Positions 4,367 to 31,270 of a DNA stretch of 31,270 nt are shown here, in pieces; within the stretch, counting starts at the first letter, position 1, and the number at the start of each line of letters is the position of its first letter. The translations under genes were made by a program, and so were the position numbers. The notes under the pieces are model-generated. The model saw nothing but the letters and a program-made list of their open reading frames with translations. It ran no database searches and was not told the DNA's origin. Origin of the DNA: a virus. The stretch lies in IMG/VR virus record IMGVR_UViG_3300030328_003716, positions 1-31,270 of that record, one strand, 5' to 3'.

Positions 4367-4425
4367 GAATAGAAAGAAACACAATCCAACATTAGCGGTA
4401 AACTAAGAGAAATACAGACAAGACT

Positions 4426-5029: not shown

Positions 5030-5043
5030 AAAATAAGAGAAAC

Positions 5044-5072: not shown

Positions 5073-5078
5073 TTAAAC

Positions 5079-6168: not shown

Positions 6169-6175
6169 TCTTTAT

Positions 6176-6200
6176 GGGGGGCTTGTCCCCCCTTCTTTTT
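6176..6200 (+). terminator. Rho-independent terminator after the capsid gene
   Basis: Six G (6176-6181), loop CTTGT (6182-6186), six C (6187-6192), then TTCTTTTTA. It is an all-GC stem with a U-rich tail, starting eight bases after the capsid stop and ending just before the gp11 ATG at 6204. Its position equals that of T-phi between genes 10 and 11 of T7; partial readthrough would set the capsid-to-tail expression ratio. Confidence 0.85.
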
Positions 6201-6203
6201 ATT

Positions 6204-6809
6204 ATGTCTTTACTTAGAACCTCAGAATTAGAAGCTGTCAATAGAGTGCTTCAGATGCTAGGAGAAGCTCCTGTTGGTAGTCTTATAAATCAGTTTGGGT
6301 TAGCGAAGCAAGCTGGTGATTCTATTAAAGATGTCAGCCGTAGAGTTCAAGCTGAAGGTTGGTCTTTTAATACAGATTACAATGTACCTTTAGATCGCAA
6401 TACGTCTGATGAAATTGTTGTTGGAAACAATGTAAGTCGTGTTGTTGTAGATCACCTTACTTATCCTGATTATGATATTGTCCAAAGAAATAATAGATTA
6501 TATGATCGCTTAAATCGGTCCTTTACTTTTACAGAAGATTTAAAAGGAGATGTTACATATATGCTTGATTGGGATGATCTTCCTGAACATGCTCGTCAAT
6601 ATATAATGACTAGAGCAGGAAGACAATTGCAAGAAGCAATCATTGGTAGTGCTGATTTAACTAAATTAAATATGGCAGCAGAAGCAGAAGCTAGAACACA
6701 ATTTATAGAAGAAGAAACAACAAAAAGCGATCATAATATGATTAGAGGAAATCCTAATAGAACAGGCCCAATGACTACTTATATGCCTTCTCGTGCCGTC
6801 ATTAGGTAA
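6204..6809 (+). CDS. 11: Tail tubular protein A (T7 gp11-like)
   Basis: A 201-aa tail-tube adaptor (gatekeeper) that forms the ring below the portal. The N-terminus MSLLRTSELEAVNRVLQMLGEAPVGSL is characteristic of the gp11 family, as are QAEGWSFNTDYNVPLDRN and YDRLNRSFTFTEDLKGDVTYMLDWDDLPEHARQYIMTRAGR. I start at 6204 and not at the in-frame ATG at 6174, because 6174-6203 is the terminator hairpin (it would encode MGGLSPLLFI) and the family N-terminus begins at MSLL. Length matches T7 gp11 (196 aa). It is followed two bases later by gp12. Confidence 0.92.
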   Translation: MSLLRTSELEAVNRVLQMLGEAPVGSLINQFGLAKQAGDSIKDVSRRVQAEGWSFNTDYNVPLDRNTSDEIVVGNNVSRVVVDHLTYPDYDIVQRNNRLYDRLNRSFTFTEDLKGDVTYMLDWDDLPEHARQYIMTRAGRQLQEAIIGSADLTKLNMAAEAEARTQFIEEETTKSDHNMIRGNPNRTGPMTTYMPSRAVIR

Positions 6810-6811
6810 TC

Positions 6812-13751: not shown

Positions 13752-16700
13752 ATGGCTGAGGGTACACAAGCAGTCCAAGAAGAGAATTGGGTTAGCTTCC
13801 CAGAAGGAGAAATTCCTAGTGAGATTCAATCGGTAACAAAAGAAGGAGAAGAATCTTCTGATGATTGGGGGGATGTAGATGATTTAGCACCTAAGCCTAT
13901 TAACGTTAACTTTGAGGAACAGCCTGATGAACCTACTTCTGGTGCTGGTTCAATTCCTTTTGATGCTTCTCCTGATTTAAGTTTAGATCTATTTAACAAG
14001 CCTGAGAATTATTTTAAATCTTTTGGAGAAGGAGTTGAATTAAACACTGGTTTTTTGTCAGATGAAAAATTTTTAAGTGATCAATATAAAATTGATAATA
14101 TTGATTATGAACTATATCAGATTGATCAAGAGCTTCAAATTCCTGAAGAAATTAAAGGAACTAAACTAGAAGAAACTATTAGACAGCAACAAGAATATTT
14201 AAAGAGACATCCTGATTTGCAAGATGCAGTAATTAAAGCGACTAACTCATCTGAGACTGGGCAATTTGATCCAATTCAGTTTGTGCAGGATGAAAGTATT
14301 CCTTGGCAAATTAGAGCTAAGATGTATAATTTATTGAATAATAGATTGTCTGAAGATAATGATATTTTAACAGAAGATAGTTTTCGAGGTGCTTTAATTA
14401 GATTTGGCGCAAATTTCCAATCTTCAGGTCTTTCATTTGTAAGTAATATAACTACAAATTTAGCACAATTGATTGCTAAAAAAGAAGGATATGGCCTGGA
14501 ACTTTCAAAGGATAAATACCAAGTTATACCAAGTGGTGATTCAAGAATAGAAGGTTTAGAGTTAGCTCCTAATCCTGCAGATTTTCATTATGTAAATCAG
14601 AGAGTAGGAGAACCAAACCCTTGGTGGGTTAATGCTGTGAGCGCGATGGGACCAGGAGGCAGTTTTACCGGTAGAGATTTTGGTAAAGGGATTCCCCAAA
14701 TACCATATCTAGATTCAGAGGGTAATCCTTATTACTTAACACAGGCAGCAATTAGTGAGAAGCTTGGTCTTGATGAGGATGCGACAGCTCAAGCATTGTG
14801 GGAACAGGGAGTATGGCCTCTTGCTCTTGAATTTACAAATGAAGTAACTGGAGAAAAAGTAATTTTAAATCCTGTTAAACCTGGAGAATTACATACAGAG
14901 CGTAGTGAACATATTAGTGGTAAATATTTTGATGGAGGTGCGGGAAGCATTCTTCCTCAGAATCAAAATATTTTAAATGAGAAATATAGAGGATTAAATG
15001 TTACATATGGGGAGGATGGTGAACTTGAGTCAGTTATATATAACGGGAGAGAATATTTAACAGCTAGGCAGCAAGATTTATATGGAACTGATATATCAGT
15101 TTATGATCCATTCGGCTTAGAAGGTCAGATACAAGGTGTTCCTTCAATTGATGCTAATGGTCCGTTAGATCCAAGGTTTTATCAGAAGGGATTTGAAGAA
15201 CTCATACCTGGAATGGCTCCTCATATGCTTGCGATCATAGCTGTCGTTATGATTACTAAAGGTAAGGTAGCAAGTCTTCCAGGTACAGCGGCTGGAGCAA
15301 GGCTTCAAGCAACAGGTGCTCAACAGCTTGCAAAAGGGTTTACTTTAAAAGGTTTGCGAAATTGGACTCTAGGCGGCCTTGGAAAAGGTGCGGGAGAAAA
15401 TGCTATAGCTTCATTCGTAGTTGAAGCAGCTAGTTATAACCGAGAGACAGGGAATGCTGTTGATGCACTTGTTCAGGTTTTTCCAGAGTTAGAAAGTAAT
15501 GTAACTGAGATATTTAGAAGTAATGAGATTGACTCAAATAATACGGCTTTTTGGAGGACTATCGGTGTTAATGAAGGACTCTTCGGTATACCATTTGGTT
15601 CATTACTTGAAGTTCTTACAGCAGGTGGTGGAGCTGGTCTTAAGGGACTAAAGAGTAGTGGTATCCCTTTTGACCCTAAACTGTGGAGAGATCTTGGTCT
15701 TGATTTCAATATTGCTGCTTTAACGAAACTGGCAGAATTAGACGTAATGGGAAAAGCTTATCAATTTGATGCTTTAAATTTAAAACTAAATATTTTAAAA
15801 ACTTTTACTGAAGAGGGAAAGATTGATTGGGGTAAAGAGAATCTAGGATTTAGGCTACCTGCTAGAAGTGGAGCTAATGATTGGGGACCAGGGGGAAGAT
15901 GGACTAATTGGATTAATCAAAAGCAAGCAACAGGTGAGATTAGAGAACCTTTATATCCTTCAGGTTATGAAGAACAACAGATACTTAATGTCGATCAACA
16001 ACCTGAGTCTTCTCCCACATTAGATCGTCAAGATTTAATTGACTTCAATATTTCAAATCAAAAAGATTTAATTACATCAATTAAAGCAACAGAAGAAAAC
16101 ATAGAAAAAATAACAACAGAATTACAAGGTTCTATTAATAAGTTGAATGAAGCCTTAGCAAGAGCAAATGAAACATCAACACCAATAGATAGAACTATTA
16201 ATACTGAATTTGGTATTGATGAATCTTTATCTAAACCTTTACCAGGTGAAGTATCGGATGTTCCTCTCGATGAGATCAGCACTGCTCCTCAGTATTTTCA
16301 AGTCAAGGAATCAGGAGTTGGACAAGTTGAAGGTGTTAGTGGCTCATTGAAAGGAGCAGAAACCTTTGAACCTGAGTTAGCAGGTATTATTACTTTATGG
16401 CGTGATACAGGAGGAACGATTGGAGATCCTGGACGTGTTTATATTGTTGATGGTCACAATAGATTAGATCTTGCAAAAAGATCAGGCAATAAAACGATTT
16501 TATCTAGGTTTATTAATGTTAAAACCTGGCAAGAAGCTAGAAGTAAAGCAGCATTAATTAATATTGCTGGCACTCAAAGCTTGAAAGGAAGTATAGAATC
16601 TTTGGATATTGCAAAATTTTTACGAGATGATAATTTTACGCTTAATGATTTAGCAGCAAGAGGTATTAATTTACAAAATAGACTTGTAGCTGAAGCTGTT

Positions 16701-19700
16701 AGATTAAATAGATTACCTGAAGAATTATTTGGAAAAGTTAGCACAGGTGAATTAAGTCTAGCTAAAGCATTGGCTCTTGGATCGGCTGAAGGAGTAAATC
16801 CAGAAGCCATCATGGATATTTATAAGCTTGCAGTAAAACAAAGATGGTCAATTGGAAGGATTGAACAAGCTATTGTCATGGCAAGAAGTGCCACCGTAGG
16901 AGTAGAGGAAGGTGTATTTCCTGAATTAAGTTCTTACTTTAAGCAATCTAATATTAAGCAGTTATTAACTGTTAGAACTGAAGTTGTTAAACAGTTGAAA
17001 GTAAGAATTAAAGCATTAGCTCCTGCTACTAGACTTGAGCAAGCGCAGTTACTAGAAGGAGTTGAAGGAACAAATATTAATATTCAAGGAAGCAAAGAGC
17101 AACGAATGGCTACACAGGCTGTTCTCAATGTTTTCAACAGAGTGGCAGGTCTTGAAGGACCAGTAACCAATATTCTTACTGATATTGCAGCAAACTTAAA
17201 AGGTAATAATGCTTCTAAATTAGTGAAAGAAAGCTTGGTCGAGCTTGAAGAAGCAATCCTACAGGAATCTAATGTTCAAACTAATATCCCAAGAGGTGAG
17301 TATAACGAAGCAGTTACAAATCAAATTTCAAATATAGCGGAAAAGACTGATGCTTTATCTAATAAAGTTATTGAAGAAACTTTACCAAAGAGAAAGCCTG
17401 AACTTCCTGAGTTAATTAGAGATCAACAGAAATTTGATGAGACATTTCCAGCGGAAAAGAAAGACAGCATAACAAATCAATTAGATAAGGATGGAGCAAT
17501 AACAAGTGATCCACGACCAATTGACTCCACTCCTCCTTCCACTCGTGTTACTAAAACAAAAATTCGGCCTGAGATAATTAAAGCTATTAAAGAAGATCCA
17601 AGGGGATGGCTTGGTGATGATGATATATGGGGAGAAGTTCCTGTTAAGGATCAAACAGTTGAGGTAGAAGCAGAAGAAGTTCCAATATCTGAGATTCAAA
17701 AGCTTTTAACAGAACGTCCAAATGAAATTCCTGTAGAAGATCTTGAGCCAGTCACTACATCTTTGTCAAAAGTAGATCCTAAAACTCCTCTTGATTTATT
17801 GATTAGATCTGCACCTGATAGTCAACAAGCATCAATAGCTATAAATAGGCTTGTTGATTCTTTTGAAAAATTTGCTGATGCTAGAGAAGCAGAGGGTAGA
17901 GGATTCGGTCCAATTGATACTGTAGGAGATTTTATTAATCTATTGAATATAGGAAGAGTTGCTATAGAAGAAGGAACACAGAAAGGTTTAAGAGATATAA
18001 AGACAGCAGATAGATTTGGAAGATTAGCTGCACCTTATGTTCAGAAAGCAGGTAAGGTCTTTCTAGAAAGAGCTATTGATGATATTGAAAAGGTTCAAAT
18101 ATATACAAAGGCTTTGCAATATGAGATAGGTAAGATTGGTAAAGGGATTGAAAAAAAGATTTTAGATGCAGGGAAAGAAGCGGATCGGGAACTAGCCAAT
18201 ATAGATAATTGGGAAGATTCAAAAATCATTGCAGCGGTATTTAATCGTATAGGACTGAAAGATAAAGGTGAGTTATTAATGCCAACAAAACGACCTACAT
18301 TTGCGATGAGCTCTATGGGTAAGAACTGGGCTGGTAAGTCTGCTCCTACCTATAGCAAGATGAAAATCAAGTGGGAATCAGATGTAGATAAAGCTATTTA
18401 TATAGCAACAAATCCTAAGAGAAGTAAGAGTCCTGATGATAAATGGTGGTATTGGTTGACAGCAGAACTAGGAATTCCAGAAGATGAAATTATTGATATA
18501 GGAATATTAATTAGAAATGAATTGAAAGAGAATTATGAAGCAGGAAGTACGTGGACTGTTAAAGATACTGACGCATGGAAGTTTGGTGGTAATACAGAAT
18601 TTATGACCTTTGATATTGAAGATGCAAGATTAAAAGAACTTATTGAAAAAATAGACGAGGATCTACTTCGTAAATATCTTGATATTACTGACGCTAAAGA
18701 TCCAGGTGATTTGCTTGCAAAATTTAAAGAGAGATTCACTCAAGACTATTTGGATTTATTCCCAGTAAAAGGATATGGAGATGCAACTATTGGATCTAGA
18801 TTTGCGGGCCCACTTCAAAGTTTTGCAGAACAAGAAGCTTTAATTAGACAGGCCAGAAGAATATTTCCAGCAGGTAAGATTGAGTTTCCTTTTGAATTAT
18901 ATGGAAAAGTTGGAGATAGACAGGCATCAGTACATCCAAATCTTAAGGGTATGGAAGGTAAATTTGTTCCTATAAAAGGAGCTTATGAACCAGATCCAAG
19001 AGGAGCAGCACATGATTTAATTCGTGTTGCTCAATCATATGGTGCAGTACCTGCAAGTTTCAGTGAGAAGTTCTGGACTGTTACTCATGAAGCTGTTCAT
19101 GGCGTTTTCCGCAGATTTTATACAAGGGCAGATGCTGAACTTCTTCTTAAGGGAGAAAAACATTTAAGAGAGATAGCAGCAATTGCGGCTCCACATAAGA
19201 AACAAGCTATTTTAAGTGGTGAAGAAGGATTTGGTGAGGTCGTTTCTTACGCTGCAATGGCATGGCATAAAGTTAAGAATCAATATCTATTACCAAAGAA
19301 AGACGTTACATGGGCACAGCCTTTACAAAAATTAGAGCAAGTTGTTAATACAGTTAAAAGATGGCTTGGAAGGAAAGGATATAAGACATGGGAAGAATTA
19401 TTTGAGGCTACTGTTTCTGGTGAATTTGCAACTGTTAGAGAGCGAGGATTGTTTGGTCCAGTTGCAGGGCCTAATCAGATGAGAATTGGCAGAGATATGT
19501 ATCACTTTGGAGCGATGAGTAGAAAGGTAACTGAAGATGTCGATTTTCTACCTGCCTTTGAAGAAGTTAACCCTGAAGATTTCCAAGCAAGATTGGGTTC
19601 TTTAAGACAACAAATGAATAAAGGTTCAGTAACATTATTAGATTTAATGATGTCTGAGCAAAGGAGACTTATTAGTAGAGGTAAGAATAGTAAAGGGCAA

Positions 19701-22700
19701 TACTCTCCATCTATTCCTGGTAAAAGATTATATGTACCCTTAAATGAAGAAGGAATTATTTTATCTAGTAAAATCGTTGAAGATCAAATTAAAGATTTAG
19801 TAGGTGATCGTATTCAAAGGACTGGAATACCTGCACAAAATAGTTCAAGAATTTTACATGCGGCTAAGGAGTTATTGATAGGGAATGAAATGGCTACAGA
19901 GAAGATTATTAATTTATGGGAAAAGGCTAGAGGTGGGGATATAAGATCAGCCGATGAATTAATTACAACAGTTGCAATTGGTGTTCTTCGAGATCAGAAT
20001 CAATTAGCAATTAAAGAATTATCAGTTGAATTTAAAGGAATAAATGATGGAGAAATACCAATAGAAGTAAAAGCAGAATTAGGTAGTAAGCTAACAGCTC
20101 TATGGACAAACCAACTTGTTTTAAATCGTACATGGGAACAGATCACAAGAAAATGGGGACAAATAGGTAAAGCAACACAACTTGAATTTGATACTGAGAA
20201 TTTAACTTTACAAAGTAATACTTCATTGAATAAATATGTACCAGAAGAACTTGCAGAGAAAGTATTAACAGATGGATTAACAGTAGAAAATGGTCCTTTT
20301 GGTGCTGGAATCTATTTCACAACAGATACTGATGCTTCTTTAGGTACAATAGTTAAAGGACAATTACCAAAGGACATTGTTATTCTTGATTTAGTTGCAA
20401 GTAATAAATCCTTATCACAATTGTTGGAAGAAATAGGAGTTAATCCTGTCGTTGCAAAGTCTGGTTTAGACAAAGAACAAGCTTTAGCTCTTCAGAATTA
20501 TGTTTTAGAGAAAGGATATGATGGTATTAGATTACCAACAGATTTAAGTCAAGTTAACATTGGAGATCAAATAGTTTTCTATGATGTTAATGCTGCGAAT
20601 AGAACAATTGGATCAGGTGCTGCGACTCCACCATCAAAAGGAGGATCTGTTACTACTGAAGTAGTAGGGGAAAATGATTATAGAACATTTGTTAATAAGA
20701 CAATTATGGAGGCAGGTAGCTTATTGGAAAGCAAGCTTGAGCCTGGAATCGTAGATGCAATTAATCGTGGAGAGTTAACAGTTCGAGCTGAGTTATTGTT
20801 AGACGAATTAGCTGAAACTGCTTTTGAGATTAATGGTTTACCTATAAAAGATCAGAAGTTCTATGTAAAAGATGTTAGTGATTTAATGTCAAATATTCCT
20901 GATGGGACTGGATGGCAGAGAACAATTGCAGATATTAGAAGAAGTGCATTGTTCTTGAATCTGTCAACATGGGGCAAAGTTTTCCTTGGCGGTACAACAA
21001 GGATGTTAGGTATGCCTATATCTAGATATGTTGGGAATGGACATCTGGCTAAAAAAGCAGAAGCAAAAGGAAACTATTTTGAGGCAACATCAGCACGAAT
21101 AAGACAGCAGATAGATAAGGAATTATGGAGAATGATGATAGATGAAATCCCCAACGCACTTCGACTATCTAATAAATCTTGGAAAGTGGCAGAGGTACTA
21201 GTTGCGCCAGGAATGCAACATTTCCAAGATGCCAAGGTTAAACAATTTGGAGGAGTGGATGAGCTTGGAAATAAATTAACAGAAGAACAATTTAAGATGG
21301 CAGGAGAGAATAGAGCAATTGAAAAAATAACAAGGAGAGGTCCACAATGGTTTGAAAAACCAACTGCTAACCCTATTGCTTTAGCAGTTAGAGCATTGAA
21401 TAAGTTTGGACCTACTCGTTTTATTTATCAAGCAGGTGCACGTAGAGGCTTAAGTGCTATTGATACTTTTGTTAGTGGAATAGTAGGACCAGCAACAGAA
21501 AGAGCACGTTTATTAGATATGGAATTACATTCAATGAGAGCAAAAGGGCAGATTATTGATCAAAAGTTACTGAACCTAGCCTTAGAAAAGGTCAAGAAGA
21601 AGATGAAACAAACTTGGGTCGATATGATTGTTAATGGTGAAAGGATTGAAGATGCTTATTTAGATAGTCCTTCTGCGCAGAACTGGATAAGTTATGTAAA
21701 TATGACAGATAAAATAAAGGTTGGACCTGAGAAAAGAACTTGGCAATATGGCTTGAGAAAAGCACAAGAACTAGGAATTGATTCGACAAGTGAACAGATT
21801 AGATATGCAGAAGAATTTACTAAAACTAGAATTAATCCTGAAAATGTTTATTCAGGTAGGGGTTCAAACATAGTTAATGCTGGATTCCATCAAGCAAGAA
21901 ATCTTGTTAATCTTCCATCCGAAATCATATCTTCTATAGAACAGAAATTCCCAATAACAGGAGCTGTAATTCCTACGAACAGAACAAACTTAAATATATT
22001 TAAAGCACTTATAAGATATACAGGACAAGGACAACATTTAATAGATACTGCATGGAGAGATATTAATCATGAAGATCCTAATATTGTAGCGAATGCACTT
22101 GGAGAATATTCAATTGGAGCACTCATGTTATCGACAGGAGTTCTAATGCAAGTTGCTGGATTTGAATTTAGTGGCCCATCTCCTACTGATTACAGAGAAA
22201 GAAAGCACAATGAGATGATTGGTAAGCCACCTCATTCAGTAAGAGCAAAATTACCTTGGGGTGGTCATGGTCCTTGGGTGAACATATCAGCCTTTGATAC
22301 TGCTGCTCCTATCATGGGGATTATTGGTAGTTACATTTATCATATAAATAGAATTCCTGTTAAAGATTTAACTGAGGACAATGATGATCTGACAATGCTA
22401 ATGGGAGTTCATATGGCTGCTATAAGAAATGCGTTAGGAGATGCAACTCTTCAACAGATGACAAGAGGCGCATTGGAATCATTGACTGATATGTTGGATT
22501 TAGCGGAGGGTATGTTAGGTGAAGGTGGAGAAGAGATTCGTGGTGCGAGAACTCCTCAGGGGTACGCTCTTGAACAATTATTTGTAGGTGGTTCTACTCC
22601 TGTCTTTGTGAATCAGGCAAAAATTGCAGTCGATCCAAATAAAAGGCAGATCAATGAAAGTAATTTACCTGGTCCATTAGCAACATTAGAAAATACTCTT

Positions 22701-23351
22701 AATGGAATATGTGCAAAATTACCTTATTGTTCACTAACTCAACCATTAGTTTTACATCAAATAACTGGTGATCCAATAGTTGTTGAGGGACATTTAGGAT
22801 CAGGTCTAACTCAACATCTATGGGACCCATTCAAAATAGTTAATGGAGTACTTAATCCTTTAAATGCTTTCAAAGTAAGGACTGGATCAACAGATATAGT
22901 TGATGAAGAAATGGCAAGACTTCAAGGGCAAGGTGCTCAATTTATTATTTGGGATAGAAGAGTATTAGGAATCAAAGGAATGGTATTGAATACAAAAGAA
23001 TTAAATGAATTAATTGAGATTGGCACTAAAGAAGTGAAGAATGAATATGGTCTTAACTTGCATGAAGAATTAACAAGAATCATTAGTGAGTCGAAAACAT
23101 ATCAAGCATTACCTGAAATGGGCGTAAGTGATGAGAGAGCAAACATTCATACAAGAGGTTCAAGAGTTGAGTACTTATATAAAACAATTGATGTCTATAA
23201 ACTTAAAGCAGTTGAGATCTTCCTACAAAGACACCCTAAGTATCAGGATCTAATAGAACAAAGAGATCAACTACGATTTGAAAGGAATCAAATGTCTGAC
23301 AATCTTGGACCACAGAGTAACCTAGAAGCATGGAGGTCTCTCGTTTCTTAA
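13752..23351 (+). CDS. 16: Giant gp16-like ejected internal core protein with embedded ParB-like, zincin and ART-like domains
   Basis: A 3199-aa protein in the gp16 position, about 2.4 times the length of T7 gp16 (1318 aa). Rough domain order: an acidic N-terminus (1-70); a hydrophobic patch (MLAIIAVVMI, about 490-500); a coiled coil (about 768-808); a ParB/Srx-like motif YIVDGHNRLDLAKRSG with following helices (about 825-1010); a Lys/Glu-rich region; a segment SDVDKAIYIATNPKRSKSPD (about 1543-1562) like those of large polyvalent proteins; a zincin motif HEAVH (1779-1783) with EEGFGE (1824-1829); an ART-like stretch GPFGAGIYFTT (from 2181) to GYDGI (from 2255) and QIVFYD; and a C-terminal region with hydrophobic helices (about 2780-2865), presumably the virion and membrane-tube part. 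No transglycosylase motif was seen at its N-terminus. Position and ejection role are well supported; domain activities are inference. Confidence 0.88.
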   Translation: MAEGTQAVQEENWVSFPEGEIPSEIQSVTKEGEESSDDWGDVDDLAPKPINVNFEEQPDEPTSGAGSIPFDASPDLSLDLFNKPENYFKSFGEGVELNTGFLSDEKFLSDQYKIDNIDYELYQIDQELQIPEEIKGTKLEETIRQQQEYLKRHPDLQDAVIKATNSSETGQFDPIQFVQDESIPWQIRAKMYNLLNNRLSEDNDILTEDSFRGALIRFGANFQSSGLSFVSNITTNLAQLIAKKEGYGLELSKDKYQVIPSGDSRIEGLELAPNPADFHYVNQRVGEPNPWWVNAVSAMGPGGSFTGRDFGKGIPQIPYLDSEGNPYYLTQAAISEKLGLDEDATAQALWEQGVWPLALEFTNEVTGEKVILNPVKPGELHTERSEHISGKYFDGGAGSILPQNQNILNEKYRGLNVTYGEDGELESVIYNGREYLTARQQDLYGTDISVYDPFGLEGQIQGVPSIDANGPLDPRFYQKGFEELIPGMAPHMLAIIAVVMITKGKVASLPGTAAGARLQATGAQQLAKGFTLKGLRNWTLGGLGKGAGENAIASFVVEAASYNRETGNAVDALVQVFPELESNVTEIFRSNEIDSNNTAFWRTIGVNEGLFGIPFGSLLEVLTAGGGAGLKGLKSSGIPFDPKLWRDLGLDFNIAALTKLAELDVMGKAYQFDALNLKLNILKTFTEEGKIDWGKENLGFRLPARSGANDWGPGGRWTNWINQKQATGEIREPLYPSGYEEQQILNVDQQPESSPTLDRQDLIDFNISNQKDLITSIKATEENIEKITTELQGSINKLNEALARANETSTPIDRTINTEFGIDESLSKPLPGEVSDVPLDEISTAPQYFQVKESGVGQVEGVSGSLKGAETFEPELAGIITLWRDTGGTIGDPGRVYIVDGHNRLDLAKRSGNKTILSRFINVKTWQEARSKAALINIAGTQSLKGSIESLDIAKFLRDDNFTLNDLAARGINLQNRLVAEAVRLNRLPEELFGKVSTGELSLAKALALGSAEGVNPEAIMDIYKLAVKQRWSIGRIEQAIVMARSATVGVEEGVFPELSSYFKQSNIKQLLTVRTEVVKQLKVRIKALAPATRLEQAQLLEGVEGTNINIQGSKEQRMATQAVLNVFNRVAGLEGPVTNILTDIAANLKGNNASKLVKESLVELEEAILQESNVQTNIPRGEYNEAVTNQISNIAEKTDALSNKVIEETLPKRKPELPELIRDQQKFDETFPAEKKDSITNQLDKDGAITSDPRPIDSTPPSTRVTKTKIRPEIIKAIKEDPRGWLGDDDIWGEVPVKDQTVEVEAEEVPISEIQKLLTERPNEIPVEDLEPVTTSLSKVDPKTPLDLLIRSAPDSQQASIAINRLVDSFEKFADAREAEGRGFGPIDTVGDFINLLNIGRVAIEEGTQKGLRDIKTADRFGRLAAPYVQKAGKVFLERAIDDIEKVQIYTKALQYEIGKIGKGIEKKILDAGKEADRELANIDNWEDSKIIAAVFNRIGLKDKGELLMPTKRPTFAMSSMGKNWAGKSAPTYSKMKIKWESDVDKAIYIATNPKRSKSPDDKWWYWLTAELGIPEDEIIDIGILIRNELKENYEAGSTWTVKDTDAWKFGGNTEFMTFDIEDARLKELIEKIDEDLLRKYLDITDAKDPGDLLAKFKERFTQDYLDLFPVKGYGDATIGSRFAGPLQSFAEQEALIRQARRIFPAGKIEFPFELYGKVGDRQASVHPNLKGMEGKFVPIKGAYEPDPRGAAHDLIRVAQSYGAVPASFSEKFWTVTHEAVHGVFRRFYTRADAELLLKGEKHLREIAAIAAPHKKQAILSGEEGFGEVVSYAAMAWHKVKNQYLLPKKDVTWAQPLQKLEQVVNTVKRWLGRKGYKTWEELFEATVSGEFATVRERGLFGPVAGPNQMRIGRDMYHFGAMSRKVTEDVDFLPAFEEVNPEDFQARLGSLRQQMNKGSVTLLDLMMSEQRRLISRGKNSKGQYSPSIPGKRLYVPLNEEGIILSSKIVEDQIKDLVGDRIQRTGIPAQNSSRILHAAKELLIGNEMATEKIINLWEKARGGDIRSADELITTVAIGVLRDQNQLAIKELSVEFKGINDGEIPIEVKAELGSKLTALWTNQLVLNRTWEQITRKWGQIGKATQLEFDTENLTLQSNTSLNKYVPEELAEKVLTDGLTVENGPFGAGIYFTTDTDASLGTIVKGQLPKDIVILDLVASNKSLSQLLEEIGVNPVVAKSGLDKEQALALQNYVLEKGYDGIRLPTDLSQVNIGDQIVFYDVNAANRTIGSGAATPPSKGGSVTTEVVGENDYRTFVNKTIMEAGSLLESKLEPGIVDAINRGELTVRAELLLDELAETAFEINGLPIKDQKFYVKDVSDLMSNIPDGTGWQRTIADIRRSALFLNLSTWGKVFLGGTTRMLGMPISRYVGNGHLAKKAEAKGNYFEATSARIRQQIDKELWRMMIDEIPNALRLSNKSWKVAEVLVAPGMQHFQDAKVKQFGGVDELGNKLTEEQFKMAGENRAIEKITRRGPQWFEKPTANPIALAVRALNKFGPTRFIYQAGARRGLSAIDTFVSGIVGPATERARLLDMELHSMRAKGQIIDQKLLNLALEKVKKKMKQTWVDMIVNGERIEDAYLDSPSAQNWISYVNMTDKIKVGPEKRTWQYGLRKAQELGIDSTSEQIRYAEEFTKTRINPENVYSGRGSNIVNAGFHQARNLVNLPSEIISSIEQKFPITGAVIPTNRTNLNIFKALIRYTGQGQHLIDTAWRDINHEDPNIVANALGEYSIGALMLSTGVLMQVAGFEFSGPSPTDYRERKHNEMIGKPPHSVRAKLPWGGHGPWVNISAFDTAAPIMGIIGSYIYHINRIPVKDLTEDNDDLTMLMGVHMAAIRNALGDATLQQMTRGALESLTDMLDLAEGMLGEGGEEIRGARTPQGYALEQLFVGGSTPVFVNQAKIAVDPNKRQINESNLPGPLATLENTLNGICAKLPYCSLTQPLVLHQITGDPIVVEGHLGSGLTQHLWDPFKIVNGVLNPLNAFKVRTGSTDIVDEEMARLQGQGAQFIIWDRRVLGIKGMVLNTKELNELIEIGTKEVKNEYGLNLHEELTRIISESKTYQALPEMGVSDERANIHTRGSRVEYLYKTIDVYKLKAVEIFLQRHPKYQDLIEQRDQLRFERNQMSDNLGPQSNLEAWRSLVS

Positions 23352-23357
23352 TTTCTT

Positions 23358-24857
23358 ATGCCTTACGCTTCCTGGACTGGTACTGGTGATGATACAACGA
23401 AGCAGTTTGCTGTTCCGTTTCCTTATGTAAAGAAGGATCACTTAGTAGTCACAATTAACTATATAGCTACTACTGCTTATAGCTGGGTGAATTCTTCAAC
23501 TATTGCGTTCGATACTTTAAGTGCAGATACTTCTACACAAAAAGCATCAGGTGCTCCAAAGCAAGGATTTCCAATCATTATTAAAAGAGGTACAAGTTTA
23601 GGTTCAGCGCTTGTTGATTTTGTAGATGGATCAACTCTTACTGCTAATGATTTAGATACAGCAAATCTTCAGCTTTTATATGCAACACAAGAACTAGACG
23701 ATACTGTTAATGCTGGTGTTGCTTGGTCGCCTCAAGGTTTAGATGCTAATAACCAGCCTGTTATTAATGTCCAAAATCCAATTAATGCACAAGATGCTGC
23801 AACAAAAACTTATGTTGACTCAGCTATAACTCCAGTCGTTAACTCCTTAAACACAGATACTTTCAAGAAAGATGGAAGCGTTGCAGCTACTGGTAATTTT
23901 GCTTTAGGAAGTAATCGTATAACAGGTCTAGCTAATCCAGTTGATGCACAAGACGCTGTAACAAAAGCACATTATGACGCTGGCATTGGTACAGCAGCAG
24001 CCTCTGCAACGGCAGCATCTAACAGTGCAACTGCTTCTGCGGCTTCGGCAACTGACTCGTCAACTTCTGCGACCTTAGCCAATAGCTATAAAAATGCAGC
24101 TTTAGCTGTCGCAAGAAAAACACATATGTATGGATTCAAGAGAAATGCAGCAGGAAATTTATTATTGGATTACAGCACTGAAGTAGAGAAAGATAATGTT
24201 GTTTATAAACAGAATGATTATATATATAAAAATTCAAATCATGCTTTCATTGGATTCAATGATTTGTTTTATTCAGGAGCATCACCTTTAATTACTAGCA
24301 CCTTAGCTGCTACTGGATATGGTGAAGCGAAATGGGGGGCAGATGGGCCACCATTAAAGATATGGCTAGACAACGATGGTCATTTAAAAATGTTATTAAA
24401 TTATGATCAGACTAATCAAGCAGGGGATGACTTAGGAGATGATTATACAGAAGCATATGGAACTATTGATTGTAGTTCTACAGCCAAACAATACTATTCA
24501 ATAGATCATCCTGCTGATGTAGATGTATTAACATTATCGAATCATACTGCTGCTTGTACTGTAATTATTGAACAAGATACAAGGGCAGGGAAATCACCAC
24601 TAAAAGATTTTAGAGCTTTCTTTGTTACAGCAGGAAACACAAGAGCACAAGCTGATGTTTATATGGATGCCACTAATAAAATCACCTTCTCTGTTCCAGC
24701 ACCTGATTCATCCACACCTGCTAATGATTGGAAACATTTAGCAATAGAAGGATGGAGAGGCGCAGATAGTGATGCTGCCAATTCCTACGCTATGCTAGGC
24801 ACAGTTAAGAAATCTCCTTATCTTGGGGATTATTCGATTAGAGTTACCACTCCTTAA
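23358..24857 (+). CDS. 17: Tail fibre protein with T7 gp17-type N-terminal attachment domain
   Basis: A 499-aa protein. Residues 1 to about 120 (MPYASWTGTGDDTTKQFAVPFPYV, IIIKRGTSLGSALVDFVDGSTLTANDLDTANLQLLYATQELDD) form the conserved domain that fixes T7-type fibres to the tail nozzle (Phage_T7_tail family). Then come two similar segments, NPINAQDAATKTYVDSAI and NPVDAQDAVTKAHYDAGI, an Ala/Ser/Thr-rich helical stretch (about residues 212-250), and a C-terminal part unlike T7 gp17, which should bind receptor or a further adhesin. It lies six bases after gp16. The next gene, a propeller protein, may be its receptor-binding partner. Confidence 0.92.
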   Translation: MPYASWTGTGDDTTKQFAVPFPYVKKDHLVVTINYIATTAYSWVNSSTIAFDTLSADTSTQKASGAPKQGFPIIIKRGTSLGSALVDFVDGSTLTANDLDTANLQLLYATQELDDTVNAGVAWSPQGLDANNQPVINVQNPINAQDAATKTYVDSAITPVVNSLNTDTFKKDGSVAATGNFALGSNRITGLANPVDAQDAVTKAHYDAGIGTAAASATAASNSATASAASATDSSTSATLANSYKNAALAVARKTHMYGFKRNAAGNLLLDYSTEVEKDNVVYKQNDYIYKNSNHAFIGFNDLFYSGASPLITSTLAATGYGEAKWGADGPPLKIWLDNDGHLKMLLNYDQTNQAGDDLGDDYTEAYGTIDCSSTAKQYYSIDHPADVDVLTLSNHTAACTVIIEQDTRAGKSPLKDFRAFFVTAGNTRAQADVYMDATNKITFSVPAPDSSTPANDWKHLAIEGWRGADSDAANSYAMLGTVKKSPYLGDYSIRVTTP

Positions 24858-24863
24858 CCCGCT

Positions 24864-27644
24864 ATGGCACAACTTGATTTAGGTAAATTAAAATTTACAT
24901 GGAAAGGTTCCTATACCGATTCAACTGCATACGAAGTTGATGATGTTGTATTTGATAAGGGAACTGCTTGGATCGTTACAACAGATGTAGCAAGTAGTAA
25001 CTCGACAGATCCTGAAGCGAATAGTTCATTCACTCGAATGGCTTCAGGTATAAATTATCGAGGAGGTTTTAGTTCTTCAAATACCTATTACTTAAATGAT
25101 ATTGTTTCTGAAGCAGGTACTTTATGGCTATATATAAATGCGACCGCATCTAATACAACTCCCTCAAGTTCAGCAACTTCTCATTGGGATGAATTCATTG
25201 CTGCACCTGGTGGCTTAATTACTACAACAGCAGGGGATCTTCCTCTAAGAGATAAGTCAGATACATTAGTACGTTTACCAGTAGGAGAACTTGACAGTCT
25301 TTTAACTCCTGTAAAAGATCCTTTGGAAAGTGATATTAAGGGTTTCTCTTATGTCGCAAACGTAGCAGGAGGTAGTGCCAGAACAGCTGTTCTAACTGGT
25401 ATTAGCAATACAAGTACTGTGTTCGGAACAAACACTGTTAATGCAGGTGCTAGCAGTACTGCCAAAATTTATTTCTCAAGAGATCAAAGAAGATACAAAA
25501 TCACATTTGCGGCTGATTCATCAGGAGCTACCTATTCACTTAAAGATCCTGCCCACGGTTCTTACTCAGGAGCTGGATCAGGTGGACGTTTAACAAATGC
25601 TCAAGGTGTAGTAGGTAATGCACATGTAACAGTATCTGCTTCTGCTACTACAGAGTTAGTCATAGCTCCTAACGCTTCTACTCCGAATACTATTGTTGTT
25701 AGAACAGAAGCAAACCAAACAGATATTGCGACTATCACAGTTGTTGATCTGAAGAAGATTCCACAATGGAAACCAAATACAAAAAAAGATAGAGCTGGTT
25801 CTAAATTAACTAACAATAGTTATAGCAAAAGAACTACTTCCTTACAGGCTTTACCTAGTTGGCTAGAAAAGTTTGGTAGAGGTGGTGGAACTGTTAGCGG
25901 CGCTTACCAATGTGCTGGGTATAGATTAGGTGCTTATATTGATGGCGAAGGAGATATTTGGAGCTGGGGTAATAAATATAATGACGCTAGTTACAATGGT
26001 TATGATGCTTTCGGAACTGGTTTTGCTTCTAGAGGAGCAGTCTATTACCCTATTAAAACTAAATGGCGTCTACCTAGATTCTGGAGAAGAGCTTTAAACG
26101 GTGTTCAATCTGAAGGCAAGTGGCTCTATGACGAACATGGTGTAGATCTTGGTTATGTAAAAGGTGATAAGCCTAGAGTTGTAGAAGGTAATTCAAATTC
26201 CACACATGGCTTATGGCTTTGTGATAACGGAATGGTATTTGCAACTGGATATCAAGGATATGGAGTTAACGGAAGTGGTTCAACTGCACCAACTAATCTT
26301 TGTGCAAAGAGTGTTGCATTTAAAGATAAGGATGGAAATGAATTAACAGGAGATAATAGACCTCGAATAGTTCAACTTTGCTCTACCCTCGGTAGCGATA
26401 ACTTTGGAACTCAAGCGACTTATGGAGCCTTAGATGAGAATGGTCAGATTTACCTATGGGGTGCTAATAACTCTGGACAACTAGCTGACGATACAACTAC
26501 AGATAACGATCATGCCAGGATGGTAAATCCTGCTCACTTTGCAGTATCAGGAACTAATAGAAAGATCCTTCAGCTCTATTGCATGGGAAGATATGCCTAT
26601 GTTTGTTACTACGCTATTGATGAAGTTGGAGATGTCTGGGCCTGGGGAAATAATAACTCTGGTGAATTAGGAATAAATAGTACGACTGACGCTAAACTTC
26701 CTGTCAGACTTGGAGGTGTAACCAATAATGTTTTAAATGGCAAGGTGGTTACTCATATTCAATGCTGTAATGGTGATGCAGGTAATGTTGGTAGAGCTTG
26801 GTTCTTAACAACTGAAGGTAAGGTTTATGTCACTGGATATGTAGAAGACGAGGGACATTACTCAGGAAAATATCAAACTAATAACAATGACTTACTAATG
26901 CCAGTAGAACTTAGTAATGCCTCAACTGGATATAACAGTGTAGTTAATAGCACTGCACAGAAAGCAGTAGCGATATGGGTATCAGGTGGTAGATATAACA
27001 ACATCTGGATTCAAACTGATGGAGGTGGAACACCAGCTCAACCTAAGATTTATTGTTATGGTCGAGTTCAAAACGGTCAGCAGGGTTCAGGTGTTACAGC
27101 TACTGCCCCAACAGCATCAGCAGAAGGTACATCCTTTGGTGCTGAACTCAAATTCAGGGACTATGGAGATCAGGTAAATAACACTACTAATAACACAAGA
27201 CCAAACGAAACAATTGGATTCCAATGGTCTACAGATGTTCAAGCTGATATTGGCCCAGGCAAAATAACTAAGATCGTTGCTAATAATTATGGTTCTGATA
27301 CTAATGCCACCACGTTAGCCCTGGATGAATACGGTCAAGTTTTCGTATGGGGTTACTCCCATGACTGGACTCTTACTCCGTATTCTGAGTCTGACGATGC
27401 AAAGGATGGTGCAGCCACTGAAACTTACCATCATGCAGCAACACCTTGTTGGTCACTACCTGAACCTATGGTTGATATTGGATTTACTGGTCATCACTCA
27501 GGCGCAGACGTAGGCTACTTATTAATTGGTAAGTCAGGTACTGTTTATGCTGGAGGAAATAACACCTGGGGCCAAGCTGGAAATAACAGCACAAGCTTCG
27601 ATGGAGTTGAGCCCGTTAAGATTTCAACTGGAGGACAGGTTTAG
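24864..27644 (+). CDS. RCC1-type beta-propeller tail/adsorption protein
   Basis: A 926-aa protein. The first 105 residues hold two copies of a short beta module (WKGSYTDSTAYEVDDVVFDKGTAWIV and YRGGFSSSNTYYLNDIVSEAGTLWLY) that resembles small carbohydrate-binding modules of the ChiA/CBM5-12 type. From about residue 355 at least eight RCC1-like units follow, each with a G-x-hydrophobic-x-x-W/T-G core: GDIWSWGNKYND (about 362), GMVFATGYQGYG (about 455), GQIYLWGANNSGQL (about 527), GDVWAWGNNNSGEL (about 588), GKVYVTGYVEDE (about 651), PKIYCYGRVQNGQQ (about 726), GQVFVWGYSHD (about 823), GTVYAGGNNTWGQA (about 890). This predicts a seven- or eight-bladed propeller. Last gene of the plus-strand virion operon, so a fibre tip or tail spike is the likely role. 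Its stop overlaps the stop of the convergent scaffold gene. Confidence 0.82.
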   Translation: MAQLDLGKLKFTWKGSYTDSTAYEVDDVVFDKGTAWIVTTDVASSNSTDPEANSSFTRMASGINYRGGFSSSNTYYLNDIVSEAGTLWLYINATASNTTPSSSATSHWDEFIAAPGGLITTTAGDLPLRDKSDTLVRLPVGELDSLLTPVKDPLESDIKGFSYVANVAGGSARTAVLTGISNTSTVFGTNTVNAGASSTAKIYFSRDQRRYKITFAADSSGATYSLKDPAHGSYSGAGSGGRLTNAQGVVGNAHVTVSASATTELVIAPNASTPNTIVVRTEANQTDIATITVVDLKKIPQWKPNTKKDRAGSKLTNNSYSKRTTSLQALPSWLEKFGRGGGTVSGAYQCAGYRLGAYIDGEGDIWSWGNKYNDASYNGYDAFGTGFASRGAVYYPIKTKWRLPRFWRRALNGVQSEGKWLYDEHGVDLGYVKGDKPRVVEGNSNSTHGLWLCDNGMVFATGYQGYGVNGSGSTAPTNLCAKSVAFKDKDGNELTGDNRPRIVQLCSTLGSDNFGTQATYGALDENGQIYLWGANNSGQLADDTTTDNDHARMVNPAHFAVSGTNRKILQLYCMGRYAYVCYYAIDEVGDVWAWGNNNSGELGINSTTDAKLPVRLGGVTNNVLNGKVVTHIQCCNGDAGNVGRAWFLTTEGKVYVTGYVEDEGHYSGKYQTNNNDLLMPVELSNASTGYNSVVNSTAQKAVAIWVSGGRYNNIWIQTDGGGTPAQPKIYCYGRVQNGQQGSGVTATAPTASAEGTSFGAELKFRDYGDQVNNTTNNTRPNETIGFQWSTDVQADIGPGKITKIVANNYGSDTNATTLALDEYGQVFVWGYSHDWTLTPYSESDDAKDGAATETYHHAATPCWSLPEPMVDIGFTGHHSGADVGYLLIGKSGTVYAGGNNTWGQAGNNSTSFDGVEPVKISTGGQV

Positions 27645-28441
27645 AAGATCGAGGATCTTCCTAACTTTTTAATTACCTTATCTCTATAAGCAGGATCAGA
27701 AGAATATAAAGGATCAGACATTGCTGCTTCTAATTGTGCATGGGATTCAAATCTTTCTCCTGTATTAGTTGGAGTTTTACCTCCAATTAATTTTCCTTCA
27801 GTACCATTAACTGCTGCATATTTACTATGTAAGCCAGCAACAGCTAATCGAATTACCTCAATGTTTGGACTCTTAAGTGACAGACTAAAGGCTTCTTTCT
27901 CGGCATCAGATAAAGACTCAGCAGCCCACGCCATCATCTGAGTGTATCCTGTGTCTCCACCATATTGTTCTTTAATATCATTAACTTGGTTCTGAGTAAT
28001 CTTTCCTTTCTGTTCTAAACCAGCAAGATAAGCATCAACAGTATCTCTTCCAAAGCCAGCTTCTTCAAGCTTAGAGAAATGTTCTTCAGTTAAAGTTCCA
28101 TTGTCTTGGAAGTAACTATTCATTTCTACATAGTCAACTCCAGCCTCTTCAAACCGATCACCTACCCACTTACCATAAATGTCTTGAGGAGTTTCACCTT
28201 CTGTTATCTCAGCAGTTGACTGCTCTTCCTCTGATGGGGATGAAGTTTTTCTTTGAAGTTCTTCATAGGCTTTTTCTAACTCACTAACATCTTTATATTT
28301 TCCAGCCAAGAGTTTCTCTTCTTGGGCTGGCTCAGTAGAAATATCAGCAGGACTACCTTTAAGTTCCTGCTGTAATAGTTCTTCGTTTTCAGGGGAGAGA
28401 GCAGAAGTTTGCTCGTCCTTGATAGTAATAGCTTCAGGCAT
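27641..28441 (-). CDS. 9: Scaffolding / capsid assembly protein (T7 gp9-like)
   Basis: A 266-aa very acidic, Glu-rich, helical protein. The LLAGKYKDVSELEKAYEELQRKTSS stretch (about residues 46-70) is the common phage scaffold signature (L.GKY.s.eELeKAY). The central helices (DRFEEAGVDYVEMNSYFQDNGTLTEEHFSKLEEAGFGRDTVDAYLAGLEQK) and a basic C-terminus (DPAYRDKVIKKLGRS) fit the T7 gp9 plan, in which the C-terminus contacts the capsid shell. It acts inside the procapsid and leaves before packaging. It is the last gene of a minus-strand unit starting at the exonuclease and is convergent with the RCC1 gene (4-nt overlap at 27641-27644). It is separated from the capsid gene by the whole tail operon. 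Confidence 0.88.
   Translation of the reverse strand: MPEAITIKDEQTSALSPENEELLQQELKGSPADISTEPAQEEKLLAGKYKDVSELEKAYEELQRKTSSPSEEEQSTAEITEGETPQDIYGKWVGDRFEEAGVDYVEMNSYFQDNGTLTEEHFSKLEEAGFGRDTVDAYLAGLEQKGKITQNQVNDIKEQYGGDTGYTQMMAWAAESLSDAEKEAFSLSLKSPNIEVIRLAVAGLHSKYAAVNGTEGKLIGGKTPTNTGERFESHAQLEAAMSDPLYSSDPAYRDKVIKKLGRSSIF
27644..27670 (+). terminator. Candidate terminator at the end of the virion operon
   Basis: A perfect seven-base stem GAAGATC (27644-27650) and GATCTTC (27654-27660) with a three-base loop, followed by CTAACTTTTT (27661-27670). It begins on the last base of the RCC1 gene and lies inside the last codons of the opposing scaffold gene. The T-run starts five bases after the stem, so it is weaker than the post-capsid terminator. 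On the minus strand no U-tract follows the stem. Confidence 0.5.
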
Positions 28442-28453
28442 GTTGATAAATAA

Positions 28454-28708
28454 TTAAGAGATTACAATGTCACCAGACTCAATGTCCCTTGTGACTTTAG
28501 GTGGCACGATGATTTTCTTTTTAGAAGTTTGAACCTTTGCATCCTTTGGAATAATTAATTCCTTTACAGATGCAGGTGGTTCAGCTTTAGGCTGTTCCTG
28601 TTTCTCCACTGGGGAGTCCTTCACTTGCTGCGTCTGTGTCTGGGAGGACGTTTGCGATTCCTCCTCCTTCTTGGGAGGGGTTAGCTCCTGCTGCGTATTG
28701 GGGGCCAT
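28454..28708 (-). CDS. Small Lys/Pro/Gln-rich protein overlapping the portal 3' end (84 aa)
   Basis: Starts MAPNTQQELTPPKKEEESQ at 28708, with AAAGG eight bases upstream of the ATG; an in-frame GTG three codons earlier is less likely. The first half is disordered (Gln/Ser/Thr/Glu/Pro). The second half has SVKELIIPKDAKVQTSKKKIIVPPKVTRDIESGDIVIS, a likely small folded tail. It overlaps the last 122 nt of the portal gene in another frame and ends 12 bases before the scaffold gene. The good ribosome-binding site and the filling of the gap between portal and scaffold support it as a gene. Function unknown; a small decoration or assembly factor is possible by position only. Confidence 0.6.
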   Translation of the reverse strand: MAPNTQQELTPPKKEEESQTSSQTQTQQVKDSPVEKQEQPKAEPPASVKELIIPKDAKVQTSKKKIIVPPKVTRDIESGDIVIS

Positions 28709-30344
28709 AAGTTGCACCTTTTTCTGTGTAGTTTTTAACCGCTTGCGCAGCGGCTGGTGAAGACATAAGAGCTTGCATTTGCTCTTGCTGCTGCATTTGT
28801 TGTTGTTGTTGTTGTGCAGCCTGAGCTTCTTGTTGTAGTTGCTCAGAAGTTTTCACTAAGTTGGTCGTATCTATTGAAGCACTAGCAGCTAATCTTCGCA
28901 GCGCTTCTTCCATATTTAGATACTTCATCATTATCTCTGCACCTAATGCTTGATTCGCAGTGCCTATAAATTCAACCAGTTTATTTCTATCATCACCTCT
29001 ACCAATAGCTTCAAGTCCAGTAACAGGTTTAGGATTAACCATCGCTTCTCCAGTCTTATTACTTGTAGGCATCTGAGGAATCTTCCCTTGTTTCTGCAAG
29101 ATATACATCAGTCTTCTAATCAATGGTAGTTGTAGTTCTTGAGTGAGTATGGAATACAAGCCACCGATTGAAGTCTCAAGTTCTTGTGCCATATATCTAA
29201 TCTCTTCTGCTGTTACTCTTTCTCCTGGTCTTTGAATTGCAGTGTTAAGTAAGAAAGCAAACTGCAAACGACTTTCAATTCTGTCAATTGTATTGTTTGC
29301 TAATTGCAAATCATTTAACTTGCCTTGACTTTGGAGAACAGTTACATCATTAGCTGATCCCTGAACTATTGCACCATTAGCAGCATTACTAAGAGTGCGT
29401 GGTCGTGTAGTTCCATTGGGATTAACCATGAACAAGACCTTACTCATAGCTGCGCTTGCTTCAAGTACGCTTTGATAAAGAGATTCCAATGCTGTTAGAT
29501 CTCCATACCACTGCTCTATATATGAGCGACCATATTCTTCTGTATCAATTCTTTCCCATCTCAATGCAATGAATGGAGAACAGTGAGCAGGACAGTGACC
29601 TTCAGTCCCAGGGATTCTTTTGCCCTTTACTTCTTGATACCAATAACATTCTTCATTCTCATAGTGAACACATGTATGTATCTTTATTGACTTCTTGGTA
29701 GGGCCAGTCTTCTCTTGAGTAGTGAAGTCATCAGGTAAGAATCCTTCTGGCAATGCTTCAGGATATACTTCTTCTTCTACTACTATTTCTGTAACTGATC
29801 CCATTGGATCACGTACTACACAATATCTTTCAAGGTGTATAACTCTTATCCCTTCTGGATTTACATAAAGGAGAACATTACCTGCAACAATTAATTGTTT
29901 AAATGCCTCGTGCATTGAAGCACGTGCACTCATAGTTTCTAGCATTGTCATTACAGCTAGCTCTACCTTTACCAAGGCAGTGTCTAGCTCAGTCTTCATT
30001 GCAGGGTCTACATCTTCACCATGAAGCAGGAGACTATCTATCTCTAATTTGAAGAAAGGTGTATTGGGAGGGAAGAGACTCAGTTCTAATTTGGTACTGA
30101 GGTTGGCTAAACCTCTTGCACCTACTGATTGATATGGTGTCTTTAATTTACCGTGATCACCTTGATGAGTATCAGGTACAAGGGATGGAATAGTTACACG
30201 ACTACAATCCCTTGCTCTTTGGAGGAAAGGATCTCTTGTAGTACATAGTTGTTGATATCTAGCAGCAGCAGTTCCATCTTCTTGTTTTAAGTCAGAAGAT
30301 TTAGAAGCTACTGCATCAACATCAGTGGTTAAGGTGAGTTCCAT
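28587..30344 (-). CDS. 8: Portal / head-tail connector protein (T7 gp8-like)
   Basis: A 585-aa portal protein, near T7 gp8 (536 aa). Recognisable stretches are AAARYQQLCTTRDPFLQRARDCSRVTIPSLVP near the start, KTPYQSVGARGLANLSTKLELSLFPPNTPFFKLEID, EAFKQLIVAGNVLLYVN, GRSYIEQWYGDLTALESLYQSVLEASAAMSKVLFMVNPNG, and RPGERVTAEEIRYMAQELETSIGGLYSILTQELQLPLIRR. The C-terminal region carries a Gln-rich run (AQAAQQQQQQMQQQEQMQ) encoded by a TTG/TTC-type triplet tract on the plus strand. The ATG follows directly on the stop of the gp7.3-like gene (TAAATG). Portal forms the dodecameric ring at the packaging vertex and is the docking site for the terminase and gp11. Confidence 0.94.
   Translation of the reverse strand: MELTLTTDVDAVASKSSDLKQEDGTAAARYQQLCTTRDPFLQRARDCSRVTIPSLVPDTHQGDHGKLKTPYQSVGARGLANLSTKLELSLFPPNTPFFKLEIDSLLLHGEDVDPAMKTELDTALVKVELAVMTMLETMSARASMHEAFKQLIVAGNVLLYVNPEGIRVIHLERYCVVRDPMGSVTEIVVEEEVYPEALPEGFLPDDFTTQEKTGPTKKSIKIHTCVHYENEECYWYQEVKGKRIPGTEGHCPAHCSPFIALRWERIDTEEYGRSYIEQWYGDLTALESLYQSVLEASAAMSKVLFMVNPNGTTRPRTLSNAANGAIVQGSANDVTVLQSQGKLNDLQLANNTIDRIESRLQFAFLLNTAIQRPGERVTAEEIRYMAQELETSIGGLYSILTQELQLPLIRRLMYILQKQGKIPQMPTSNKTGEAMVNPKPVTGLEAIGRGDDRNKLVEFIGTANQALGAEIMMKYLNMEEALRRLAASASIDTTNLVKTSEQLQQEAQAAQQQQQQMQQQEQMQALMSSPAAAQAVKNYTEKGATYGPQYAAGANPSQEGGGIANVLPDTDAASEGLPSGETGTA
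28770..28842 (-). repeat. CAG/CAA triplet tract encoding a poly-Gln run in the portal
   Basis: On the plus strand a run of TTG and CTG triplets (including five consecutive TTG units near 28800-28814) encodes consecutive glutamines near the portal C-terminus. Such tracts are prone to length change by slippage; a change in multiples of three would leave the portal frame intact. Confidence 0.7.
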
Positions 30345-30656
30345 TTATGGAATATTCAGACCACTTCCAGCCTGTAAGTCAGTCCTTAGTTTTTTCCTTC
30401 CATAACCTCTACGTCTTGACGCAAGTGCTGAACCTTTTGTTCCACCTGCTGTAATTTCTAATGCTGCTGCTGCTGACTGAGCAACTGGACTTGGTGGTGG
30501 AGCTGGAGGAGCTTCTGCTATTGCTTTCTGTTCTGCATATCGCTCCTCTTGCGATGCCTTTTGTTCCTCGTATTGACGTTTCTGTTCAGCCATCTGCTCC
30601 TTTTGCAGCTCAAGCATACGATCATCTGGTTCTGGGTCGTCCCTTCTTCCACACAT
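30345..30656 (-). CDS. 7.3: gp7.3-like virion/tail assembly protein
   Basis: A 103-aa protein directly upstream of the portal gene. The N-terminal half is a long charged helix (RMLELQKEQMAEQKRQYEEQKASQEERYAEQKAIAEAP), then a Pro/Ala linker, and a basic C-terminus ending RRRGYGRKKLRTDLQAGSGLNIP. The ending G(R)KKLR...SGLNIP resembles the C-terminus of T7 gp7.3 (G.KSL....GGGINI), a small virion protein encoded just before the portal in T7. The N-terminus is MCGRRDDPEPDD. It starts two bases after the preceding stop. Assignment is by position and by the C-terminal motif; the rest has low complexity. Confidence 0.7.
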   Translation of the reverse strand: MCGRRDDPEPDDRMLELQKEQMAEQKRQYEEQKASQEERYAEQKAIAEAPPAPPPSPVAQSAAAALEITAGGTKGSALASRRRGYGRKKLRTDLQAGSGLNIP

Positions 30657-30658: not shown

Positions 30659-30844
30659 TTAAGTACCTTGATTGTTTTGATCAGCATAGACGGAAATGAG
30701 CATCCGCACTACACTCCTTGCTCCTCCATAATGCCAGATATCTCTATCTTTTGCCTCTAAGTCAGGACATTTCTCAGGATATATTTCATCTAACTTCTTA
30801 ATTAAAGCCTCCTCAATGGGAGGCCATAGATCTTCTTCATTCAT
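30659..30844 (-). CDS. Small conserved-looking phage protein (61 aa), function unknown
   Basis: Starting at 30844 the product is MNEEDLWPPIEEALIKKLDEIYPEKCPDLEAKDRDIWHYGGARSVVRMLISVY and a short polar tail. The pattern LWPPIEEALIK.L...PE.CPDL...DR.IW...G.R.VVR.L is one I associate with small proteins near the exonuclease or portal in marine T7-like phages. The chosen ATG overlaps the exonuclease stop by eight bases; a start at 30871 would overlap by 35. It is helical and soluble, with no TM segment. No function is known to me. Confidence 0.7.
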   Translation of the reverse strand: MNEEDLWPPIEEALIKKLDEIYPEKCPDLEAKDRDIWHYGGARSVVRMLISVYADQNNQGT

Positions 30845-31270
30845 AAATCGGTTCCCATAATTTAACTTCACCTGTTACATGATCGTACTCTCCATCACGC
30901 AAGATGCGTGTTAATTGAGCAGTCATAACAGCATCAGCATAAGTCCTTCCTTTCTTTTTATACTCCTCTACCACCTTGTTCCACATATCTTTAGGTGATT
31001 CCAAATCGCCTAACAATTTCTCGGCAGTCTTAGGACCAACGCCTGTTAAGCCTTTAATATTATCAGTCGCATCACCTTGTAATACTTGTAACATCCAGTT
31101 TCTATCTGCTTTCTTTCTTGTTACTAATTCAAGATCATCTTTAGCTAGCAAGGTACACGGTACACCTCGCATATCTTTATCAACAGAAACAATTATTGGA
31201 TTATCATATCGTCCACCTGTAGCAAGTAACGACATAACATCATCACCTTCTAGGTTAGGGAAACTAACAG
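30837..31270 (-). CDS. 6: 5'-3' exonuclease, T7 gp6-like (partial, N-terminus outside window)
   Basis: The frame is open to the window end; residues before the first ATG (VSFPNLEGDDV, then MSLLAT) fit the family's acidic metal-binding stretch (E.DDV), so the gene continues past 31270. Next come NPIIVSVDKDMRGVPC (another acidic motif of the FEN/T5-exonuclease superfamily) and LQGDATDNIKGLTGVGPKTAEKLLGDL, which holds the DNA-binding helix-3-turn-helix with the GD..DNI..L.GVGPKTA signature. In T7 gp6 degrades host DNA to recycle nucleotides and removes RNA primers. It is the upstream gene of the minus-strand unit leading to portal and scaffold, whose promoter must lie outside the window. Confidence 0.9.
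   Translation of the reverse strand, partial: VSFPNLEGDDVMSLLATGGRYDNPIIVSVDKDMRGVPCTLLAKDDLELVTRKKADRNWMLQVLQGDATDNIKGLTGVGPKTAEKLLGDLESPKDMWNKVVEEYKKKGRTYADAVMTAQLTRILRDGEYDHVTGEVKLWEPIYE

Follow-up and report, generated by a model that had tools for sequence, protein, structure and literature searches.

The window, which is a whole IMG/VR record, is a linear fragment of 31,270 bp, and its open reading frames and profile searches gave the gene set of a T7-like cyanopodovirus (Table 1). The T7-type portal, scaffold, capsid, tail tubular A/B, fibre N-terminus and terL of the Autographiviridae set were all present; the collinear portal-scaffold-capsid-tail order, which is usual but not formally required in that family, was absent. 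Comparison with relatives showed that the early genes, some 8-10 kb between terL and the exonuclease, are missing from the window. Two genes of the tail operon had features of their own: the 3,199-aa virion-type protein (13752-23351) carries a weak ParB HTH match and a HEAVH motif, a possible metallopeptidase signature, and a pattern search among viral contigs returned no close relatives of the RCC1-like gene.

Table 1. Features of the 31,270-bp window, with the evidence for each assignment
Feature	Position	Strand	Evidence
terL, 5' end cut by contig end	1-1509	+	PHROG 38, E 1e-91; PF22530
Second inverted segment: PHROG 570, 848, 650, 564 and 2714 genes and two small ORFs	1699-4811
73-aa gene, hydrophobic N-terminus	4808-5029	-
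-10-like hexamer TATCAT, divergent, toward the 73-aa gene	5051-5056	-	similarity only
-10-like hexamer TAATAT, 6 nt ahead of the capsid leader	5067-5072	+
Structured RNA leader of the capsid gene, conserved	5079-5190	+	covariation; covariance model, 78 bits
Major capsid protein, at the start of the inverted block	5191-6168	+	PF21703, 1.5e-66; PHROG 267
Rest of the inverted block: tail tubular A/B, internal virion proteins, 3,199-aa protein, fibre, RCC1-like gene	6174-27644	+
Tail tubular A/B	6174-9478	+
Fibre with T7-type N-terminal domain	23358-24857	+	PF03906, 4.7e-30
RCC1-like last tail gene	24864-27644	+
Overlapping tail-to-tail stops, TTAG	27641-27644		scaffold TAA / last tail gene TAG
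Terminator-like hairpin then T run, end of the capsid-fibre operon	27644-27660	+	consensus match only
Capsid assembly scaffold protein	27641-28441	-	PHROG 1052, 6e-51; PF05396, 2e-12
Portal (head-tail connector)	28587-30344	-	PF12236, 7e-82; PHROG 449, 8e-166
103-aa protein, gp7.3 position	30345-30656	-	position only
70-aa protein adjoining the exonuclease	30659-30871	-	PHROG 4970
Exonuclease, 5' end cut by contig end	30837-31268	-	PHROG 107, 1e-27

The capsid-to-fibre operon (5191-27644) runs on the plus strand, portal and scaffold lie on the minus strand, and the two operons converge tail to tail, with 21.5 kb between the capsid stop and the scaffold stop. An earlier sequence-only reading had described this unusual layout with scaffold and capsid about 22 kb apart, and open reading frames, profiles and gene order in independent contigs confirmed it. 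Profiles likewise bore out portal and scaffold on the minus strand, and profile searches found no family match for the 103-aa protein, to which the name gp7.3 is given by its position.

We then followed the two junctions in other contigs, which were retrieved by a portal search of viral contigs with synteny mapping, or via the capsid and the 73-aa gene. At the first junction (27641-27644), TTTAGAAGAT is common to the window and a G008-type junction. One or other junction was found in 16 further contigs from 10 metagenome datasets, as counted from contig names. The scaffold junction, in which the scaffold gene is followed by reversed tail-end genes, was present in L005, L006, L007, L008, L011, L012, L180/L193 and L184, with portal identity to the window of 97% for L005 and 87-89% for L006, L007, L008, L011 and L012. 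The capsid-side junction, in which the capsid gene and its neighbour, either the PHROG 570 gene or the 73-aa gene, stand back to back, was present in L085-L091 and L172. Both junctions lie on a single contig in the window and in G008, a nearly closed contig of 41,227 bp whose ends overlap by 333 bp at 97%, giving a genome of about 40.9 kb. The terminator-like hairpin behind the window's late operon, which could keep that operon from antisense run into the scaffold gene, was not evident by eye in G008.

As the window is a metagenome contig, inverted pieces might have been wrongly joined near 27641 and near 5000. However, the junctions recur in contigs whose portals diverge by up to about 14%, genes are complete on either side of the junction, with overlapping stops, and no inverted repeats, a candidate cause of inversion or of misleading an assembler, were found at the block ends in the window. 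Because independent contigs show the same gene order, chance and misassembly are excluded, and an assembly chimera, to which we give a negligible probability, is already refuted for the capsid-fibre inversion. The small inversion at 1699-4811 was seen in the window only.

Gene orders were compared after setting the RNA polymerase gene (RNAP) forward in every genome. In the standard order of P-SCSP1u, G013, G016 and G017, RNAP leads to the exonuclease, portal, scaffold and capsid and on to the fibre, after which come the 73-aa gene and the PHROG 570 gene (where relatives exist), reversed small genes, and reversed terL and terS. The window clade keeps the order RNAP-exonuclease-portal-scaffold unchanged and has the capsid-fibre block reversed. 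Thus it was the capsid-fibre block that moved, and not portal and scaffold. The sequence-only reading, which had called portal and scaffold inverted, had the polarity backwards: both retain the ancestral orientation, collinear with the exonuclease and RNA polymerase, and the scaffold gene closes the early-side operon. It had also counted the position of terL as part of the anomaly, but terL is already reversed in the standard-order P-SCSP1u, and this is the ancestral state of the group. In the ancestral order the 73-aa gene has the fibre genes on one side and the PHROG 570 gene on the other.

A portal tree of 73 sequences placed the inverted order in a single clade of 8 tips (100/100), and a single origin was obtained in 100% of bootstrap trees. 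Capsid and exonuclease identities agreed with this tree: capsids are 95-96% identical within the clade and no more than 86% outside it, and exonucleases 90-100% and no more than 77%. Of the nearest GenBank records, 47 were present in the portal listing as well as in the capsid listing (counted from the tables), and in all 47 portal and capsid were on the same strand, a few kb apart. The suggestion that the layout is the mark of a lineage with a genome plan of its own was upheld by the monophyly of the clade and by the absence of its order from these records. The comparison with P-SSP7, Syn5, HTVC011P and Pf-WMP4 agreed, as none has the inverted order and all have scaffold and capsid close together on the same strand. 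Reversal of the whole structural arm is already known from Pf-WMP4; the split of scaffold from capsid by inversion appears to be new, since no published description was found in a search that omitted most subscription journals.

Further inversions were found in the group. The clade itself has two sub-arrangements: in the G008 type the 73-aa gene adjoins the scaffold, and in G007, G024 and the window it adjoins the capsid. This difference between subclades calls for one more event at the least, or else for two inversions. Segment 1699-4811, which the earlier reading had missed as a second inversion, is reversed relative to its neighbours in the window alone, the other clade genomes having it the opposite way. 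The junctions that it created coincide precisely with stop codons, and comparison with G024 showed that the g121 gene (1334-1699) closes with CTTTAA and the 73-aa gene with TTTTAA, two pieces that give a 5-base inverted match. Reversal takes in the whole structural arm in G014, G015 and others, such that terL adjoins the portal operon and the exonuclease end faces a small gene; here GCCAA is common to both ancestral ends. The whole-arm state is scattered on the portal tree, with three changes, and whole-arm inversion occurs at two or more points of a sister clade. A terminase gene immediately ahead of the portal operon was observed in L056, L132, L142 (G014, G015), L027-L031, L034, L134 and L137. 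It appears that short matches at gene ends permit occasional illegitimate inversion, and that survivors keep their operons whole.

This recurrence, with whole-arm inversion in a sister clade and a small inversion in the window, might also be expected if the capsid-fibre block flips within populations, as in phase-variable phages, with each contig recording one state. We consider this improbable: the block is not flanked by long inverted repeats, the standard order was found in none of the contigs of the clade, and the junctions have gathered clade-specific sequence.

We also examined the control region of the capsid gene. Upstream of this gene lies a leader of ~115 nt whose conservation spans genomes of the inverted and of the standard order. 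A -10-like hexamer (TATTAT, TACACT, TAATAT, TATCAT, TATAGT or TAGTAT) stands 6-7 nt before the first base of the leader in each of the 45 distinct leaders for which sufficient upstream sequence was available, whereas in a shuffled control a hexamer of equal quality, at any position in the upstream region, was found in 26 of 45. No -35 was recognised with the element, and k-mer and matrix scans for a phage-RNAP promoter motif common to the operons gave, besides the capsid element, only low-scoring or chance-level matches. We infer that the capsid -10-like element is a working promoter, and its reader may be the host or the phage polymerase. In the inverted clade (5030-5078 in the window), the element has behind it, in divergent orientation, a second -10-like element, TATCAT or TATTAT, which faces the neighbour gene.

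An initial RNAalifold run on a loose alignment recovered a hairpin alone, and the structure was afterwards set by hand and tested. In 31 aligned leaders, 94.7% of the cells of its 18 pairs were paired and 35 cells were changed on both sides, against a shuffled mean of 10.2. When the partners were slid by one to three columns pairing fell to 60% or less, a comparison that favours the set structure over its slid versions because the structure was set on the same sequences. The hairpin (columns 31-42) is always paired, with five pair types at one position; the outer stem shows almost no variation and lacks support from covariation. Folded alone, the window leader did no better than shuffles (z -0.59). 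The covariance model matched once per genome where it matched, at the capsid gene, P-SCSP1u included, and gave no match in P-SSP7, Syn5, P-SCSP2, P-RSP2, Pf-WMP4 or HTVC011P. As no Rfam family reached the gathering cut-off, the leader is a candidate new regulatory RNA family in many cyanopodovirus-like contigs. The outer stem would cover CUAGG, a putative ribosome-binding site, so that the leader may tune capsid translation; we propose such translational control as a hypothesis because the outer stem hardly varies.

The nearest isolates are P-SCSP1u/MPP-C (portal 60%, capsid 76%, terL 81% identity). Like the window, they have a reversed terL and the capsid leader, but their capsid gene directly follows the scaffold gene on the same strand. 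They have no DNA polymerase gene. Although the incomplete window has no early region, clade members G001, G004, G005, G008 and G023 carry a single-subunit RNA polymerase gene with 59-61% identity to that of P-SCSP1u, and near-complete G008 gave no match to DNA_pol_A, for which P-SSP7 and Syn5 score. The portal tree joins the P-SCSP1 clade, at a fork with 100/96 support, to a larger sister group that contains the window clade. The window was not filed as MPP-C proper because it belongs to this sister lineage, outside the isolate clade; the MPP-C isolates have genomes of 37.3-37.9 kb (PMC9860041), a range that does not include G008. P-SSP7 and Syn5 resemble the window in their morphogenesis gene set and differ in having all late genes on one strand, a forward terL, a DNA polymerase gene and no leader match. 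Change at the scaffold-capsid boundary is tolerated in P-SSP7 too, where hliP and psbA are inserted at this point. Pf-WMP4 (Saffermanviridae), in which the structural genes oppose the early genes and a gp19-like gene adjoins the portal gene, is like the whole-arm inversion of G014/G015, but has portal, scaffold and capsid contiguous on the same strand of the reversed arm and no match to the capsid leader.

Taken together, these results are very probably explained by one inversion of ~23 kb, from capsid to fibre, in an ancestor of this MPP-C-related clade, in which a self-contained operon was moved intact with its -10-like element and leader. The first break would lie just behind the scaffold stop, upstream of the capsid promoter-like element, and the second where the tail operon ends. 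Portal and scaffold would then have remained collinear with the early genes, and the late operon now points at them. Because the -10-like element and structured leader moved with the capsid gene, the operon appears to have been a self-contained unit already, which would be why the inversion was tolerated. Hence the view that the layout needs new timing control found no support. The relative amounts and timing of capsid and scaffold would be set by their own promoters, and the distance between the two genes need not matter because both proteins act in trans; on this analysis head assembly probably works as in relatives.

The T7 genome enters the cell end first, and from such entry it would follow that the flip could have been selected for changed capsid timing, for instance by a promoter near the last-entering genome end. 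The capsid start in the clade does now lie toward the terL end. We regard this adaptive rewiring as unlikely, since the control elements of the capsid gene were conserved and not replaced, and fixation by drift accounts for the data equally well. Somewhat less doubtful, although still tentative, is the idea that a host-type promoter, with the new RNA leader as translational switch, makes the late operon independent of orientation and repeated large inversions possible.

T7-like phages are a model of a fixed gene order linked to the timing of genome entry and of transcription. With a natural lineage whose scaffold and capsid lie 21 kb apart on opposite strands, the need for such an order can be tested. 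The inverted lineage is present in many marine datasets and belongs to a little-known group of T7-related viruses of cyanobacteria, and its travelling capsid leader is a candidate regulatory RNA of abundant marine viruses.
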